Shown here: positions 7,720 to 57,252 of the stretch, one piece after another
How the letters are laid out: each line of letters starts with the position of its first letter
How positions within the stretch are numbered: the stretch's first letter is position 1
Origin: Pseudanabaenaceae cyanobacterium SKYG29
Lineage (GTDB): Bacteria > Cyanobacteriota > Cyanobacteriia > Pseudanabaenales > Pseudanabaenaceae
Reading direction: 5' to 3'
Assembly: GCA_025055675.1 (NCBI GenBank)
Contig: JANWWT010000001.1
Location: 310,001 to 374,000, forward strand
Length of the DNA stretch: 64,000 nt
Program-made: the position numbers and the translations under genes
Notes under the pieces: model-generated
Seen by the model: the letters and a program-made list of their open reading frames with translations, nothing else
The model's database searches: none
Told to the model about the DNA's origin: nothing

Positions 7720-8784
7720 ATGAGATTACTATTTATTTCCACATCTGTTGGCGCCTTTGGCAGTGGTATAGGGGGGGGAGTCGAACTGACCATCCGCAAC
7801 GTCTGTGACTATTTGTTACACAGGGGTCATACTGTGCATTTAGTTGCCCCTAGCGGTTCCGTCGCCCAGAACATACCGATCGTGGCTTTGCCGGGGGCAT
7901 TACACAGCTTTGCCCAGAACAGTGATAGAAATGACCCCATTCAATTCCCCAGTGATTCGGTGGTAGCCGAGATGCTGCACTATGCCTACCAAATGCAAGA
8001 CCGCTACGACCTGATTGTCAGTTTTGCCTACGACTGGTTACCCTTTTATCTCACCCCTTTTTTTAGGACACCCCTTATACATTTTGTCAGTATGGGTTCA
8101 GTTAGTGATGCCCTTGATTACATCATTTGCAAAACAGGCAGGCAATTTCCCCGGCGTTTGGGGATGTACACCTATGTCCAAGCCCAGAGTTTTGGCGACC
8201 CCCAATTAGAAGTAGAAATCCTGGGGAGTGGCATTGATTTAGACCGCTATGAATACGTGGAATCCCCCGCTGATTTTTACGTCTGGATTGGCAGAATTGC
8301 CCCTGAAAAAGGGTTAGAAGATGTTGCTGCCGTCAGTGCCCAATTAGGTATAGAAGTACAGGTTTTTGGCAAGATGCAGGAAGAACAATACTGGCAGGCA
8401 TGTCATGCCCAATATCCCCAAGCCCGTCTACACTATCAAGGCTTTTTCAACACCGATGAATTACAAGCCAGAATTGGCAAAGCCCGCGCCCTGATTATGA
8501 CTCCCAAGTGGGTAGAAGCCTTTGGCAACGTTGCCATTGAAGCCCTCGCCTGTGGTGTACCAGTCATTAGCTATGCCCGCGGTGGACCTGTAGAGATTAT
8601 TCGTCACAACGAAACAGGTTACCTAGTAGAGCCAGACAACATAGAAGCCCTGGCAGAAGCCATCAGCAAAATCGATCGGATTCGGCGGGGGAAATGCCGT
8701 GCCCAAGCAGAAAAAGAATACTCCCTCGAAGCCCTGGGAGAAAGATTTTTAGCCTGGTTCAAAGCTATAATCGCTGTTTTATAA
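7720..8784 (+). CDS. glycosyltransferase family 4 (GT-B)
   Basis: GT-B glycosyltransferase of 354 residues using an NDP-sugar donor. The N-terminal Rossmann half has a glycine-rich loop (GSGIGGGVELTIRN); the C-terminal half has YVWIGRIAPEKGLEDV and the retaining-GT signature PKWVEAFGNVAIEALACGVP with the E-x7-E pair, then ARGGPVEIIRHNETGYLVEP. No membrane segment is seen. It begins 2 bp after the LCP gene and likely belongs to the same transcript. Acceptor and sugar are unknown. Confidence 0.9.
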   Translation: MRLLFISTSVGAFGSGIGGGVELTIRNVCDYLLHRGHTVHLVAPSGSVAQNIPIVALPGALHSFAQNSDRNDPIQFPSDSVVAEMLHYAYQMQDRYDLIVSFAYDWLPFYLTPFFRTPLIHFVSMGSVSDALDYIICKTGRQFPRRLGMYTYVQAQSFGDPQLEVEILGSGIDLDRYEYVESPADFYVWIGRIAPEKGLEDVAAVSAQLGIEVQVFGKMQEEQYWQACHAQYPQARLHYQGFFNTDELQARIGKARALIMTPKWVEAFGNVAIEALACGVPVISYARGGPVEIIRHNETGYLVEPDNIEALAEAISKIDRIRRGKCRAQAEKEYSLEALGERFLAWFKAIIAVL

Positions 8785-8809
8785 TGACAGAGGTACTCCC
8801 CCTTACATT

Positions 8810-9751
8810 ATGGAAATTCAGGATCAATTCCAACAACTGTTAACAACCCTGGGTAGTGTAATTGTAGGACAGGAGGAATTGCAAAAACAATTAGTGATTG
8901 CTTTGCTGGCGGGGGGACACGTAATTTTAGAAGGGGTACCAGGGACAGGTAAAACAATGACAGTAAAAGTCCTTTCCCGTTTGGTGCAAGCAGAATTCCG
9001 TCGTATTCAATTGACACCCGATGTTTTACCTTCTGATATTTTAGGCACAAATGTCTTCGATTTAAGTAGTAGAACCTTCGTCCTCAAACGCGGACCTGTC
9101 TTTACGCAAATTTTGCTAGCAGATGAAATCAACCGTACGCCACCCAAAACCCAAGCCGCTCTCCTTGAGGCGATGGAAGAACAACAAGTCACCCTAGATG
9201 GGGAAGCCCTCTCCCTATCTCCCCTCTTTTGGGTCATTGCCACCCAGAATTCCCTGGAATTTGAAGGCACCTATCCCCTACCAGAAGCCCAACTCGATCG
9301 GTTTCTCTTCAAACTATTAGTAGAATATCCCGATCGGTCGGCGGAAAAGCAAATGTTGCTTAACAGTCATCAGGATAGAACGAAAGAAAGACTAGAAAAC
9401 ATTGGTGGTTTAGTCACAGTAGAAGGAATTTTAGCAGCCCGTCACCTTGTAAGACAAGTAGAAGTGAAAGAAGTGATCTTTGATTATTTACTGGATTTAT
9501 CGCAACGCACAAGACAACATCCCGATCTATCTTTAGGGGCATCTCCCCGTGCCCTGGTGCTGTGGTTACAGGCAGCCAAAGCCCATGCTTGGTTAGGAGG
9601 ACGAAATTTTGTCACCCCTGATGATATAAAGAGAGTAGCATTGCCCTTGTTACGCCATCGTCTTATACTCAAGCCGGAAGCGCAGTTGGATGGTTTGCAG
9701 GTAGATGGTGTCGTGACCAATTTACTCAATCAAGTTGCCGTACCGAGATGA
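8810..9751 (+). CDS. MoxR-family AAA+ ATPase (copy 1)
   Basis: AAA+ ATPase of the MoxR class, thought to act as a chaperone that assembles or activates partner proteins. It has the Walker A motif GVPGTGKT near residue 43, Walker B LLADEINR near residue 103, the sensor-1 segment IATQNSLEFEGTYPLPEAQL, and the sensor-2 region GASPRALV. Length is 313 residues, normal. The usual DUF58 and von Willebrand partners are not adjacent; instead the stop overlaps the start of a malic enzyme by 4 bp (ATGA). A second, only partly similar MoxR is found at 26669. Confidence 0.93.
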   Translation: MEIQDQFQQLLTTLGSVIVGQEELQKQLVIALLAGGHVILEGVPGTGKTMTVKVLSRLVQAEFRRIQLTPDVLPSDILGTNVFDLSSRTFVLKRGPVFTQILLADEINRTPPKTQAALLEAMEEQQVTLDGEALSLSPLFWVIATQNSLEFEGTYPLPEAQLDRFLFKLLVEYPDRSAEKQMLLNSHQDRTKERLENIGGLVTVEGILAARHLVRQVEVKEVIFDYLLDLSQRTRQHPDLSLGASPRALVLWLQAAKAHAWLGGRNFVTPDDIKRVALPLLRHRLILKPEAQLDGLQVDGVVTNLLNQVAVPR

Positions 9752-52084: not shown

Positions 52085-53182
52085 ATGACTGGTCTATATG
52101 TAGCCATCTCTGGACATGGGTTTGGTCACACTACCCGCACTTGTTCAATAGTAGCCGCTGTGCAACATTTTTTACCCGACTTACCCGTCACAATCGTCAC
52201 CACTAGCCCCCAATGGTTGATTGATTCCTATGTCACGCAACCCTACCACTATCGACCAGTCAGGTTAGATGTGGGGGTAGTCCAAAGGGATGGCTTACAA
52301 ATGGATAAAACAGCAACTTTAGCGAAGTTAAAAGAGTTGTTGACACAACAACAGGAATTAGTCGCCCAGGAGGCAGCCTATATTCAATCCCAAGGCATCA
52401 ATTTAGTATTTGCCGATATACCGCCTCTGGCTATAGCTATTGCCCGATCGGTAGGTATCCCCTGCTGGCTCAGTTCTAATTTTGGCTGGGATTTAATTTA
52501 TCAAGACTGGGTGGCAGAATTACCAGATTTCCAGGAAATAGTAGAGTGGATACAGGATTTATATCGCCAAGTGGATTTACTCCTGCGCCAACCTTTTTGT
52601 GAAGCAATGCCCGTCTTTCGCAATAGAATAGATGTAGGTTTAACAGGGGGAACACCTAAATTCAGTCCCGCAGAAATCTATGAAAAATTGCAGTTATCAC
52701 CCGATCGTTTGGCAGTATTAATTAGCTTTGGCGGTCTAGGATTACAGGCAATTCCCTATGACAATGTGATGAATTATCCTGACTTACAATTTATCACCTT
52801 TGACCAAGCAGCGCCCAATTTAGCTAATCTCCTAGTCCTGGCGGGACGTAATATTAGACCTGTAGATATTATGCCCATCTGCGATGTTGTAATTACCAAA
52901 CCAGGTTACAGCACCATAGCCGAAGCCTGTCGTTTGCAGCGGGGAATTGTCTGTTTGACTCGTTCAGATTTTGCGGAAGGTAAATATCTGCTGGCAGGGG
53001 TGCGGAATTATATGCGTCATCACATTATTGAGCCAGAGGATTTTTATCACGGTAAGTGGGAATTTTTATGTAGTCATTTTACACCCCCCCGGTTAACCGA
53101 CCCGCCTGCTGGAGGGGGAGAATGGACAATTGCGCAAAAAATCGTGACCTATTTCTGTGGGGGGGTTACCAACTGGATTTAA
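52085..53182 (+). CDS. GT-B glycosyltransferase-like protein
   Basis: 365 residues with a glycosyltransferase-B fold of the type found beside L-arabinokinase and UDP-GlcNAc MurG-like enzymes: [17 protein letters not shown] near the start, [34 protein letters not shown], and [17 protein letters not shown]. An AGGAGA ribosome-binding site lies 7 nt before the ATG. A short Pro/Gly-rich run near the C-terminus ([16 protein letters not shown]) breaks the fold pattern. Overlaps the convergent rpsN by 17 bp. Substrate unknown. Confidence 0.78.
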
Positions 53183-53471
53183 CTACGCCTGGCAGTAAGC
53201 CCTGGTGTGCCATCTCACGGAGCATATTGCGACAGAGACCAAAATCGCGGTAGTAGGCACGGGGTCTACCCGTGAGGCGGCAGCGGTTGCGTAGACGGGT
53301 GGGACTGCTATTGCGGGGAAGGCGTTGTAGTTGCCGATGTAAATTTAGCAGTTCTGCTTGCGTCAGTTCCTCAGTCATCATCCGTTCCTTGAGGGCTTCC
53401 CGCTTGGCAGCGTATTTTGCCACTAGCTTTTGGCGCTTCTTCTCGCGCTCGAGCATACTTTTTTTCGCCAT
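53166..53471 (-). CDS. rpsN: 30S ribosomal protein S14
   Basis: Small-subunit ribosomal protein of 101 residues, the longer zinc-free form. Typical parts are [16 protein letters not shown] at the start, [17 protein letters not shown] in the form [18 protein letters not shown], and [16 protein letters not shown] at the C-terminus. The ATG at 53471 gives the family start; a longer frame exists but is not needed. Stands alone, outside the ribosomal operons, as in other cyanobacteria. Confidence 0.96.
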
Positions 53472-53560: not shown

Positions 53561-56500
53561 ATGGTCTACACAGATAATGTCGATATATCCAGTGGCAGAC
53601 TGCTCCAGCGGAGTCTCTTACCCCAACATATTCCTAGCTATCCAGGCTTGGAGATTGCCGCTGATGTATGGACAGCTGTGGACCTAGGGGGGGACTATTA
53701 TCAGTTCCTAGAGCAACCAGGTCTTTTAGGGGTAGCAATCGCCGATTCCTCAGGCAAGTCAGTAGCAGGAGCAATTCACGCGGCTTTGTTCAAGGGACAA
53801 CTGGATGTCTTGGCGCAGCAGGGCAAACTCCACAATCCGGTGCAATTACTGACGACTCTCAATAAATTGCTATGTGAAACACCGACAGGAGATGCAATTG
53901 CCCTTGCCTATGGGGTGCTGGACTTGAGTACCTACGAACTGCGGGTCAGCAATGCTGGCATTCCTGGTCCCATACTCTACTATGCTAAAAAACAACGCTG
54001 TGAAGAAATTGTCAATCCTGCTACTGCCCTAGGACGCTATGACCAAGCCACATTTAAGGTCACTACCCGATCGTTAGAACCAGGGGATGTAGTAGTTTTT
54101 TTTAGTGATGGACTGTCAGAGCAGATTAACATTAGGGGGGAGGAGTTTGGGGATTATGCCCTGGCACAGGCTTTAGCCCGATCGGCCCATTTACCAGCCC
54201 AAGGTATTTTACACAGCCTCAAGCAGGAACTAGATGAATTTTCAGGGCGGAGTGTCCCCGACGATGATGTTTCTATTGTGGTGATTAAGTTAATCAAAAA
54301 GGTAAAGCCTAGCCAACTGCGGGACTGTCCCTACCAGGAGGCATTTCAGGCATGGTTGCGCTCAGAAGAAAAAGATGCATCCTGTCTGCTGCGGGGAATC
54401 AGGCTGCAGGAAGCTCTGGAATGGGCAGAGGGACGAGAACTAACTCAATCGGAGCGAGAATTTTTAGAGGCTAGTCAAAGGGTCAATGAGCGGGAGCAAC
54501 TGCAAGCCCAGCTCCTAGTAGAGGCACAGAAACGGGCAGAAGCCGCAGACCAATTGGAAAAACTTGCCCAGGAACTTGCCCGTAGTCTGGAGGCAGAACG
54601 ACAACACCGTATCGCGGCAGAGCTGGGAGAACTGCGAGAGCGCATCATTGCCTTGACTAAGTCGGCAGAAACTCTCTACCTTTCTAACAATCAAATTGAA
54701 GCCCTCATTGCCAGTGTGATTGCGGGTGTGCAGCTCAAACGCCTGTCGGTACAGCTAGGGGATGAACTGGCTTCCAAGCTGGAGGATAAGGTGAAGATGC
54801 AAACGATCGTCACCCTAGAGCAAGTAGTCTACGGCATTCATGAAACCAACCGCCTGGAGGGACATGGTTACTGGGTGAACAAGGTGCGCTTTAGTGCGGA
54901 TGGTAGCAGTATAGTTTCCGCTAGTAGCGATCGGACGATTCGGGTGTGGAATACCGACGGTAGTCTGCGCCAGGTTCTAACAGGGCACAACAACTGGGTC
55001 ACCAGTGCCGACTTTAGCCCTGACCAAAGAATTCTAGCTTCCGCTAGCCGCGACAATACTGCCAGGTTGTGGTTTCTCGATGCAGAGAGGGGGTTATACC
55101 GCCAGGAGGGTTTTGTTGTCCTCAAGGGACACGATGGACCTGTAATGGATGTGCGCTTTAGCCCCGATGGGGAAATTGTGGCTACCGCCAGTGAAGATAA
55201 CACGGTCAAACTGTGGAAGACGGACGGCACCCTATTGAAAACCCTGCGTAATGGGCATAGTAAGTGGGTGAGCTGTGTTGCCTTTAGCCCCAACGGCAAG
55301 GTGATTGCCTCCGGCAGTGCCGACCGCACGATCGTGCTTTGGAATCGGGAGGGGGCGATTGTGCAGGTGCTAAAGGGGCACGAGAGTTTTGTCGAGGATT
55401 TAGCCTTTGACCCCAAGGGACAGGCATTGGCATCGGTGGGGCGGGATCGCACGGTGCGGCTGTGGAATACGGAGGGGATGTTGATTCAAACCTTTGAGGG
55501 ACACAAGGACAAGGTGTGGGGCGTGGCCTTTAGTCCAGATGGTGAAATTATAGCTAGTGGCAGTGCCGATCGGACAGTCAAACTCTGGGACTTGCGGGGC
55601 AATTTGCTCAAAACTTTAAGCGGGCACGGGGACGTAGTCCAGACTGTAGCCTTTAGTCCGAATGGCAAAATCCTCATCTCCGGCAGTCGGGATACAACAG
55701 TGAAGCTGTGGAATTTTCTGGGCACACCCCTAAAGACCCTTACGGGTCCAGAGGAAGCTATTAACTGTTGTGCTGTCAGTCCTGATGGGAAAATCATTGC
55801 TGCCGGTAGCCGTGACCGCCAAGTACAGGTGTGGATTGCTTCCGGCAAACCCGTCTATCGCATCAAGGATCACCACAACGATCGGGTGACCAGTGTCTGC
55901 TTTAGCCCCGATGGGCGCATGATTCTAACGGGTTGTGCTGATAACAGTGTACGGTTGTGGGAAACCCGATCGGGTCGTTTGTTGCTGACCATGACGCGGC
56001 ATCGCGAGGAAGTCCATCAAGTGGCATTTCGTCCCGACGGGCAAGTGATAGCATCCTGTTCGGCAGATGGTACGATTCGGCTGTGGGACTTGCGGGGAGA
56101 TTGTCTAGACACCTTGCAGGAGCACTTGGGAGATGTCTATACCATCACCTTTAATCCTGAGGGGACAAAGCTAGCATCAGGGGGCAAAGACCGCAACATT
56201 GTTATTTGGAATTGGAACGGCAAGGTTGAGCGCGTCTTTGAAGCCCACAGTGCGGAAATTTTGACAGTAGCCTTTAGTCCTGATGGCAAAATGATTGCCT
56301 CTGGCAGTGCCGATCAGAGTGTGAAGCTTTGGACCCTAGAAGGCAAACTGATCAAAACCCTCAACGGGCACAGTGCAGAAGTGCATCAAGTGGCTTTTCA
56401 CCCTGATGGTACAACCCTAGCTTCTGCGGGGGACGACCACCTCGTACAGTTTTGGAGTATTGATGGGACACTGCTGCGATCGTTTACGGGGCACCAGGGA

Positions 56501-56731
56501 CCAGTGCGGGGGGTGTGCTTCAGTCCCAATGGCAAGACCCTGATTTCTGCCAGTGCGGATTTGCGGGTAATTATGTGGAATTTAGACCTGGAAAACTTAC
56601 TAACGCGGGGCTGTACTTGGCTACAGGAATATTTACGCACTAACGGCTATGTTTCTGAGCAGGACCGCCGCACCTGTTTAGGGGGCTGTAGTTGGTTCTT
56701 CAAATATCTCAAGGGGGAGAATACCAAATGA
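53561..56731 (+). CDS. SpoIIE-type PP2C phosphatase fused to 14 WD40 repeats
   Basis: A 1056-residue soluble signalling protein. Residues about 10-240 are a PP2C/SpoIIE phosphatase with all acidic metal ligands present: DLGGDYY (Asp45), IADSSGK (Asp62), FSDGLSE (about 181) and DDDVSIV (about 232). A helical coiled coil (about 290-400) follows, and then VVYGIHETNRLEGH leads into WD40 repeats from about 431 to 1016. I count 14, each with GH/D...VWN/LW ends, i.e. probably two seven-bladed propellers. The ATG at 53561 is chosen because an earlier start would run through rpsN. Coupled by ATGA to the DUF4330 gene. Substrate and signal are unknown. Confidence 0.9.
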   Translation: MVYTDNVDISSGRLLQRSLLPQHIPSYPGLEIAADVWTAVDLGGDYYQFLEQPGLLGVAIADSSGKSVAGAIHAALFKGQLDVLAQQGKLHNPVQLLTTLNKLLCETPTGDAIALAYGVLDLSTYELRVSNAGIPGPILYYAKKQRCEEIVNPATALGRYDQATFKVTTRSLEPGDVVVFFSDGLSEQINIRGEEFGDYALAQALARSAHLPAQGILHSLKQELDEFSGRSVPDDDVSIVVIKLIKKVKPSQLRDCPYQEAFQAWLRSEEKDASCLLRGIRLQEALEWAEGRELTQSEREFLEASQRVNEREQLQAQLLVEAQKRAEAADQLEKLAQELARSLEAERQHRIAAELGELRERIIALTKSAETLYLSNNQIEALIASVIAGVQLKRLSVQLGDELASKLEDKVKMQTIVTLEQVVYGIHETNRLEGHGYWVNKVRFSADGSSIVSASSDRTIRVWNTDGSLRQVLTGHNNWVTSADFSPDQRILASASRDNTARLWFLDAERGLYRQEGFVVLKGHDGPVMDVRFSPDGEIVATASEDNTVKLWKTDGTLLKTLRNGHSKWVSCVAFSPNGKVIASGSADRTIVLWNREGAIVQVLKGHESFVEDLAFDPKGQALASVGRDRTVRLWNTEGMLIQTFEGHKDKVWGVAFSPDGEIIASGSADRTVKLWDLRGNLLKTLSGHGDVVQTVAFSPNGKILISGSRDTTVKLWNFLGTPLKTLTGPEEAINCCAVSPDGKIIAAGSRDRQVQVWIASGKPVYRIKDHHNDRVTSVCFSPDGRMILTGCADNSVRLWETRSGRLLLTMTRHREEVHQVAFRPDGQVIASCSADGTIRLWDLRGDCLDTLQEHLGDVYTITFNPEGTKLASGGKDRNIVIWNWNGKVERVFEAHSAEILTVAFSPDGKMIASGSADQSVKLWTLEGKLIKTLNGHSAEVHQVAFHPDGTTLASAGDDHLVQFWSIDGTLLRSFTGHQGPVRGVCFSPNGKTLISASADLRVIMWNLDLENLLTRGCTWLQEYLRTNGYVSEQDRRTCLGGCSWFFKYLKGENTK
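54850..56600 (+). repeat. array of WD40-encoding repeats, period about 123 bp
   Basis: Fourteen degenerate in-frame repeats of about 41 codons inside the phosphatase gene, recognisable by recurring ttagcccYgaNgg (FSPDG), GSADRT and LW segments. This is protein-repeat structure; the units are not identical and there are no spacers, so it is not a CRISPR array. Confidence 0.8.
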
Positions 56732-57252
56732 TCGACCAGCAGGGCAGACTGTTTGGTAAGGTGAGCATTCTGGACATTGGGGCAGTGCTGCTTATCCTGG
56801 GAGTGCTGGCAGGATTATTAGTTGTCCCCAGTAAAAGCGGCTATTCTGTTGCCCAGGTGGCTACGGCAGTCAGCAAACCGGTGGAGATTGAGATTATGGT
56901 CAGGGGCTTGACCGTGAAGGAACCCGATCGGCTGCTGCAGCCAGGGGAAAAGACCAGCATTCTCATTCGCAACCAGGAGCGGGGCAAGGTTGACATCACA
57001 AAAGTAGAAGTGTTGATTCCCAAGATTCCTGTCCCCAAACTCGATGGCACAGTGGTGACAGTAGAAGACCCCCGTCTTGCTGATACCTATGTGCGGGACT
57101 TTGCCATTACGCTGGCGGGGAATGCCCAAGTGACAGGGGAAGAGGTAGTTTTGGCAGGGGAAAAGGTCAAAATTGGCACACCGATCGAGATTGAGGGGGC
57201 ACGCTATTCCATTCGTGGTAGTGTGATGGGCATCCACATCCTTAATCGCTAA
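56728..57252 (+). CDS. DUF4330 family membrane-anchored protein
   Basis: 174 residues from the ATG at 56728, which overlaps the WD40 gene stop by 4 bp (ATGA). The N-terminus MIDQQGRLFGKVSILDIGAV leads into one membrane helix (about 14-36), followed by a soluble beta-rich region with an internally repeated IGTPIEIEG pattern. DUF4330 proteins are found widely in cyanobacteria without a known role. The coupling suggests a shared pathway with the phosphatase, for example presentation at a membrane; that is inference. lpxD follows after 100 bp. Confidence 0.78.
   Translation: MIDQQGRLFGKVSILDIGAVLLILGVLAGLLVVPSKSGYSVAQVATAVSKPVEIEIMVRGLTVKEPDRLLQPGEKTSILIRNQERGKVDITKVEVLIPKIPVPKLDGTVVTVEDPRLADTYVRDFAITLAGNAQVTGEEVVLAGEKVKIGTPIEIEGARYSIRGSVMGIHILNR

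Follow-up and report, generated by a model that had tools for sequence, protein, structure and literature searches.

We analyzed a 64,000-nucleotide stretch of the genome of Pseudanabaenaceae cyanobacterium SKYG29 (hereafter "the window", meaning the whole stretch), focusing on a gene that joins a SpoIIE-type PP2C phosphatase domain to an array of WD40 repeats. The gene is a single open reading frame of 1056 codons with an ATG start (53561-56731, forward strand), and the frame stays open 5' of this ATG, up to a TTG at 53417. An earlier note, made from the sequence alone, had described an intact SpoIIE-type phosphatase joined to 14 WD40 repeats and followed by a DUF4330 gene whose ATG overlaps the phosphatase stop codon as ATGA. 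Both parts of this description hold: Pfam, the repeat pattern and a structure model agree on the first, and a Pfam match identifies the second gene (Table 1). The window's genome is referred to as G000 and the other members of its genus as G001 and G002; both genes are kept in these two, at 83-96% depending on the part compared. A search of NCBIfam with five proteins returned no match over the cut-off.

Table 1. Features of the SpoIIE-WD40 locus, in window positions
Feature	Positions	Strand	Residues or basis
Ribosomal protein S14 gene, divergent	53166..53471	-	PF00253
SpoIIE-type PP2C phosphatase domain, extreme N-terminus	53561..54295	+	Residues 1-245; Pfam PF07228
Likely metal ligands Asp 62, Asp 183, Asp 236	53744, 54107, 54266	+	Motif match and alignment
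Helical linker, common to AAA_35-WD40 ATPases	54296..54859	+	Residues 246-433
14 WD40 blades	54860..56590	+	Residues 434-1010; Pfam, repeat pattern, model
Helical C-terminal tail and stop codon	56591..56731	+	Alignment of 9 orthologues; model
DUF4330 gene, 174 amino acids	56728..57252	+	PF14221, E 2e-50

Architecture of the SpoIIE-WD40 protein

The N-terminal domain matches the Pfam SpoIIE family over residues 54-243 (E 9e-35; 121 bits against a cut-off of 25). Its relatives in the PDB are Rv1364c (3ke6), a putative serine phosphatase (6k4e) and the response regulator 3es2/3eq2, which is named RssB in PMC12143880. In an alignment with these relatives, the three likely metal ligands correspond by motif to D628, D746 and D795, the metal-binding residues of SpoIIE in the numbering taken from PMC8080068, and all 18 sequences aligned, that of the window among them, have all three. 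Judged by its domain score and these three predicted metal-binding residues, the protein is a SpoIIE-type PP2C. Among seven distant orthologues aligned, the SpoIIE domain is conserved above the propellers (60-66% versus 53-58%).

The remainder of the protein consists of the linker, the repeats and a short tail. No Pfam family matched the linker (residues 246-433), which is modelled as helices, one of them predicted to span 79 residues (296-374; 54446-54682). Behind it, Pfam reports 14 WD40 stretches, the repeat pattern gives 14 starts between residues 434 and 977, and the structure model contains 56 strands (14 x 4) between residues 427 and 1007; the 14 blades therefore probably form two seven-bladed propellers. 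The best fold match in the PDB is 2YMU, a repetitive propeller with 48% identity that, by its title and length (577 amino acids), consists of propellers alone, without a phosphatase. Apaf-1, which carries an NTPase and likewise no phosphatase, ranks fourth. Five tail residues (C1018, W1020, C1039, C1043 and W1045) are invariant in nine orthologues, and two tail helices are modelled at 1010-1027 and 1033-1055. The full-length model has a mean predicted local distance difference test score (pLDDT) of 80 and a predicted template-modelling score (pTM) of 0.50, and its first ~120 residues are poor, so the model does not fix the relative placement of the domains. About 20-30 residues precede the first phosphatase strand; the linker and the putative sensor both lie C-terminal to the phosphatase.

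Distribution and origin of the fusion

To place the fusion in the phylum, we used a class-level sample of 39 relatives (24 Pseudanabaenaceae and 15 others) and a phylum sample of 386 genomes; the phylum searches scored a limited number of top candidates in each genome (at most 4, 10 or 8), and their counts are lower bounds. The fusion, represented by residues 1-440, was found in all 24 family genomes at 56% identity or more, some of them in pieces or partial (G018 is seen over residues 200-440 alone, as its contig begins there). It was found in none of the 15 other class genomes, where the matches listed cover either the SpoIIE part (~22-32%) or the linker (33-40%). At least 4 of the 386 phylum genomes match at E 1e-30, all four belonging to the family, and a scan of named genomes yielded 27 loci labelled Pseudanabaena, Pseudanabaenaceae, Phormidium tenue, Oscillatoriales or plain cyanobacterium. 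The gene is a single frame with the N-terminal motif in 17 of the 24 family genomes, with an altered tail in G014. By these matches the fusion is old and family-wide in Pseudanabaenaceae. Our search of the open-access literature (full-text words, titles and abstract starts) returned no paper on a SpoIIE-WD40 protein, and the PP2C and WD40 passages seen of PMC7159879 include no fusion of the two; the architecture is conserved and, within the literature searched, undescribed.

The linker has homologues in at least 98 of the 386 phylum genomes. We read the best 30 of its many matches, 26 outside the family and four within it, for what lies ahead of the linker. All 26 non-family loci carry an AAA_35-like stretch there. 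At 25 of them the match runs to the end of the query, next to the linker, an endpoint that is partly a matter of construction since the query was cut at residue 382; at the remaining one (L241), the best AAA piece stops at residue 260. At all four family loci SpoIIE replaces AAA_35 ahead of the linker, and no AAA match is found there. One AAA_35 protein (L143; AAA_35 E 8e-29) can be aligned over 758 positions, with 43.5% identity, to the stretch 257-1028 of the window protein; the two share the linker, the 14 WD40 stretches and the order of the blades, and differ in that L143 has its AAA_35 part where the window protein has SpoIIE. As aligned, the linker and propellers are colinear with those of an AAA_35-WD40 ATPase, the phosphatase having taken the place of the ATPase domain. 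AAA_35-WD40 proteins presumably work like STAND NTPases. Sigma factors that carry WD40 or AAA_35 as accessory domains have been described in cyanobacteria (PMC11119718) and fit the idea of exchangeable modules: they too combine a regulator with an accessory domain, the regulator being a sigma factor and no phosphatase being present.

A kinase-STAS pair as candidate partners

Neighbour clustering over 23 loci revealed that in two related genera (G006 and G004) the two divergent genes directly upstream of the phosphatase encode an RsbW-type kinase (frames of 159 and 148 amino acids) and a STAS protein (116 amino acids). The earlier note had stated that no kinase or anti-sigma gene lies beside the phosphatase, which is correct within the window and incorrect in these two genera. 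It had also proposed to look for a STAS protein encoded elsewhere, and G000 indeed has one (C1:497208-497555), whose gene overlaps that of an RsbW-type kinase (C1:496774-497208) ~130 kb from the phosphatase gene. This pair shares 70.8-75.0% identity with the pair of G006 and G004. The partner switching that the note expected of a SpoIIE-type phosphatase thus gains candidate components, which co-occur with it and adjoin it in two genera.

The kinase matches PF13581 (E 2e-23) and has RsbW and SpoIIAB as PDB relatives; NCBIfam RsbW models match it below their cut-offs. The E and N of its N-box, an ATP-site motif, are kept in 23 of 23 loci. In the STAS protein the corresponding loop is VSRG; its Ser, kept in 23 of 23 loci, takes the position of the first Ser in the DSSG/DSTG loop when aligned with SpoIIAA and RsbV. 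We take this residue to be the equivalent of the phosphorylated Ser (S58, S56) of these two proteins. Ser 58 is placed in the conserved loop by PMC8256260.

The two genes follow the family closely. At E 1e-12, a threshold on which the count hinges, kinase orthologues are present in 23 of the 24 family genomes, missing from G010 (85% complete), and in none of the 15 other class genomes. The STAS orthologue occurs in all 24 family genomes at 68% identity or more; eight of the 15 non-family genomes have weak matches (26-33%) and seven have none at E 1e-5. A STAS match lies just downstream of the kinase in 23 of 23 loci (in two pieces in G012). We also searched the flanks of the 23 kinase loci, out to ~1.5 kb or as far as the contig reached, with 8 of the 10 SpoIIE domains of G000, and obtained matches in G006 and G004 only, both of them the fusion. 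As a control, the same queries match between 12 and all 23 of the fusion loci, except for query L002, which matches none.

Searches for further linkage gave negative results. The flanks examined at the 27 named fusion loci, some of them short, contain no kinase or STAS gene. In some genomes (e.g., G009 and G018) a contig end truncates the upstream side of the phosphatase gene. G009 has both the kinase gene and the phosphatase gene close to the start of a contig; the contig ends share no exact overlap of 15 bases or more and no 13-mer. In the phylum sample, kinase matches occur in at least 16 of the 386 genomes, four in the family and 12 distant ones (30-37%) outside the class; at these 12 loci (L208-L219), the stretches examined hold no STAS or SpoIIE match. 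Such distant relatives may be a clue to where the kinase-STAS pair came from.

The history of the locus bears on why the pair is remote in the window's genus. The S14 gene lies near the phosphatase gene both in this genus and in G006, providing a synteny marker, and the fusion tree groups the genus with G006, G004 and G009 with moderate support (83/89). Together, synteny and tree suggest that the window's genus descends from the linked arrangement. In the simplest account, which we infer, kinase, STAS and phosphatase once stood together near S14 in this branch and the window's genus moved the pair away.

Several neighbours were recorded along the way. Directly upstream of the phosphatase and on its strand, 13 genomes from two genera have a short pentapeptide-repeat-like gene (by eye; it reads as secreted; L125-L136, L138). 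Downstream of the kinase-STAS pair, genera g4 and g7 (e.g., L164) carry an intein-bearing DnaE-like frame (by eye; 14 loci). G000 has three STAS matches in short stand-alone frames; the second has a DSSG loop and converges on a SpoIIE gene whose N-terminal part resembles a receiver (by eye; C5:51326-52203; L146, L002), so that a separate phosphatase-STAS pair is present in this genome.

Proposed mechanism and its alternatives

We favor, with moderate confidence, the reading that the window protein is a partner-switching phosphatase special to Pseudanabaenaceae, with a C-terminal sensor taken from an ATPase-WD40 protein. The RsbW-type kinase would phosphorylate the adjoining STAS protein on the Ser of its VSRG loop, and the SpoIIE-WD40 protein would remove the phosphate. 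The propellers and helical linker would represent the sensing and transmitting half of a former AAA_35-WD40 ATPase: a ligand or protein bound to the propellers may cause the linker helices to rearrange or dimerize, the 79-residue helix transmitting the input, and thereby turn the phosphatase on or off. The output could be a sigma factor or another target; in the Hmp system of Nostoc, the output is believed to be the STAS protein itself (PMC6495340, PMC8256260).

The earlier note had offered two roles for the propellers, selecting the substrate or receiving the signal. Substrate selection appears less likely, because SpoIIE and RsbU owe their specificity to loops in the phosphatase domain (PMC11418112) and because propellers and linker come from the ATPase-WD40 family; we prefer signal reception. 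SpoIIE-type phosphatases are reported to switch when their domains pair through switch helices, and those of stress responses to have their sensors attached via a helical linker on the N-terminal side (PMC12143880, PMC8080068); in the window protein, the one long helix follows the phosphatase domain. It is possible, and we propose it tentatively, that the ATPase-WD40 sensing half forms a transferable cassette able to function in the absence of its ATPase and drives the phosphatase with reversed polarity, a C-terminal signal pairing the phosphatase domains via a long coiled coil.

Several observations weigh against the partner-switching reading. The three genes adjoin one another in just 2 of the 24 family genomes, and the two cases may represent one inherited event; as the co-occurrence follows one clade, it stands for few independent events. 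The VSRG loop lacks the Asp and the second Ser/Thr of the DSSG/DSTG loops of its PDB relatives, and G000 encodes 10 SpoIIE matches, so that other phosphatases could serve the STAS protein. The loop before the switch helix reads GKS, compared with GHG in the PDB relatives. Seven of the 24 family genomes (G001, G004, G007, G012, G018, G021 and G023) have the gene in split or shifted form or lose part of it at a contig end; in the two-contig genome G004, a 313-amino-acid transposase-like frame (by eye; L122, ~8070-9080) interrupts the WD40 array.

Some of these points would equally suit a phosphatase that acts in partner switching or Hanks-kinase signalling on another substrate, the pair in G004 and G006 being a coincidental neighbour. 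The rarity of the adjacency, the three stand-alone STAS, 10 SpoIIE and 14 kinase matches of G000, and the genus-by-genus variation of the remaining neighbours, such as the pentapeptide-repeat-like gene, all lean this way. We nevertheless consider it rather unlikely, given that the distributions of phosphatase, kinase and STAS match, that no other SpoIIE was found beside the pair in the flanks searched at 23 loci, and that S14 synteny and the tree suggest a linked ancestry for the window's genus as well. The GKS loop and the broken genes could alternatively indicate a weakened or dead phosphatase that serves as a binding module; with the three metal-binding Asp invariant and the SpoIIE domain conserved above the propellers, this appears highly improbable.

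The DUF4330 gene raised another alternative, since the earlier note had suggested that its product places the phosphatase at the membrane and that the two form one signalling unit. The ATGA overlap is kept in all three genus members, and the encoded protein has one N-terminal hydrophobic helix (~14-35 by eye; 14-30 in a poor model built from three sequences, pLDDT 48) followed by a strand-rich domain. However, the two genes are neighbours in the genus only: 3 of 3 genomes there, compared with 0 of the 34 other DUF4330 genomes, in the flanks examined (several loci end at contig ends). Conservation of the pair in related genomes, on which the note had made its proposal depend, was therefore not found outside the genus. 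DUF4330 itself occurs in 37 of the 39 relatives, made up of 23 of the 24 family genomes and 14 of the 15 others in the class, and is independent of the phosphatase because these 14 genomes lack the fusion. An overlap of the ATGA type is, moreover, possible in 8 of the 40 co-directional neighbouring frame pairs of the window (frames of at least 100 codons). With no pair beyond the genus and an ordinary overlap, the adjacency is best seen, from these comparisons of gene order, as a genus-level arrangement in a compact genome, with DUF4330 outside the unit. By the charge rule, a weak guide, the soluble part of DUF4330 probably lies outside the cytoplasm. At 15 of the 36 DUF4330 loci read, all 15 in the family (L062-L075, L058; L061 gave no neighbours), the next gene downstream or the one after it encodes a Hanks-type Ser/Thr kinase, and a tie to Ser/Thr phosphorylation is thinkable; the closest G000 match to that kinase is at C5:14561 (47%). 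Weighing both sides, we regard a joint membrane unit as very unlikely. No paper on DUF4330 was found in the open-access literature search.

Returning to the partner-switching reading, the window protein can be set beside described systems. Like RsbU, RsbP and SpoIIE, it has a SpoIIE-type PP2C domain with three Asp, and an RsbW-type kinase and a STAS protein are encoded in its genome, next to the phosphatase in two genera. Unlike them, it places the phosphatase first and WD40 propellers behind as the putative sensor, whereas their sensors and coiled-coil linkers are N-terminal (PMC12143880); the N-terminal sensor and linker by which RsbU-type regulated phosphatases are defined are absent from it. 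HmpU-HmpV-HmpW of Nostoc punctiforme is likewise a cyanobacterial switch of phosphatase, STAS protein and kinase (PMC8256260, PMC6495340), but the pair described here is a family-specific lineage, and the likeness is one of component types. WD-repeat Ser/Thr kinases, largely cyanobacterial, also join a bacterial signalling enzyme to WD repeats, the enzyme being a kinase (PMC1262709). In the text seen of a study of Pseudanabaena motility (PMC8365994), partner switching is mentioned only within a reference.

The fusion would represent a natural domain swap, in which the sensing arm of an ATPase-WD40 protein stands behind the enzyme while described phosphatases carry their sensors in front (PMC12143880). 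Two questions thereby become open to experiment: can such an arm signal once its ATPase is gone, and can the dimer switch of these phosphatases be driven from the other end? For Pseudanabaena, it would give a three-gene pathway with a named candidate kinase and a named candidate substrate.

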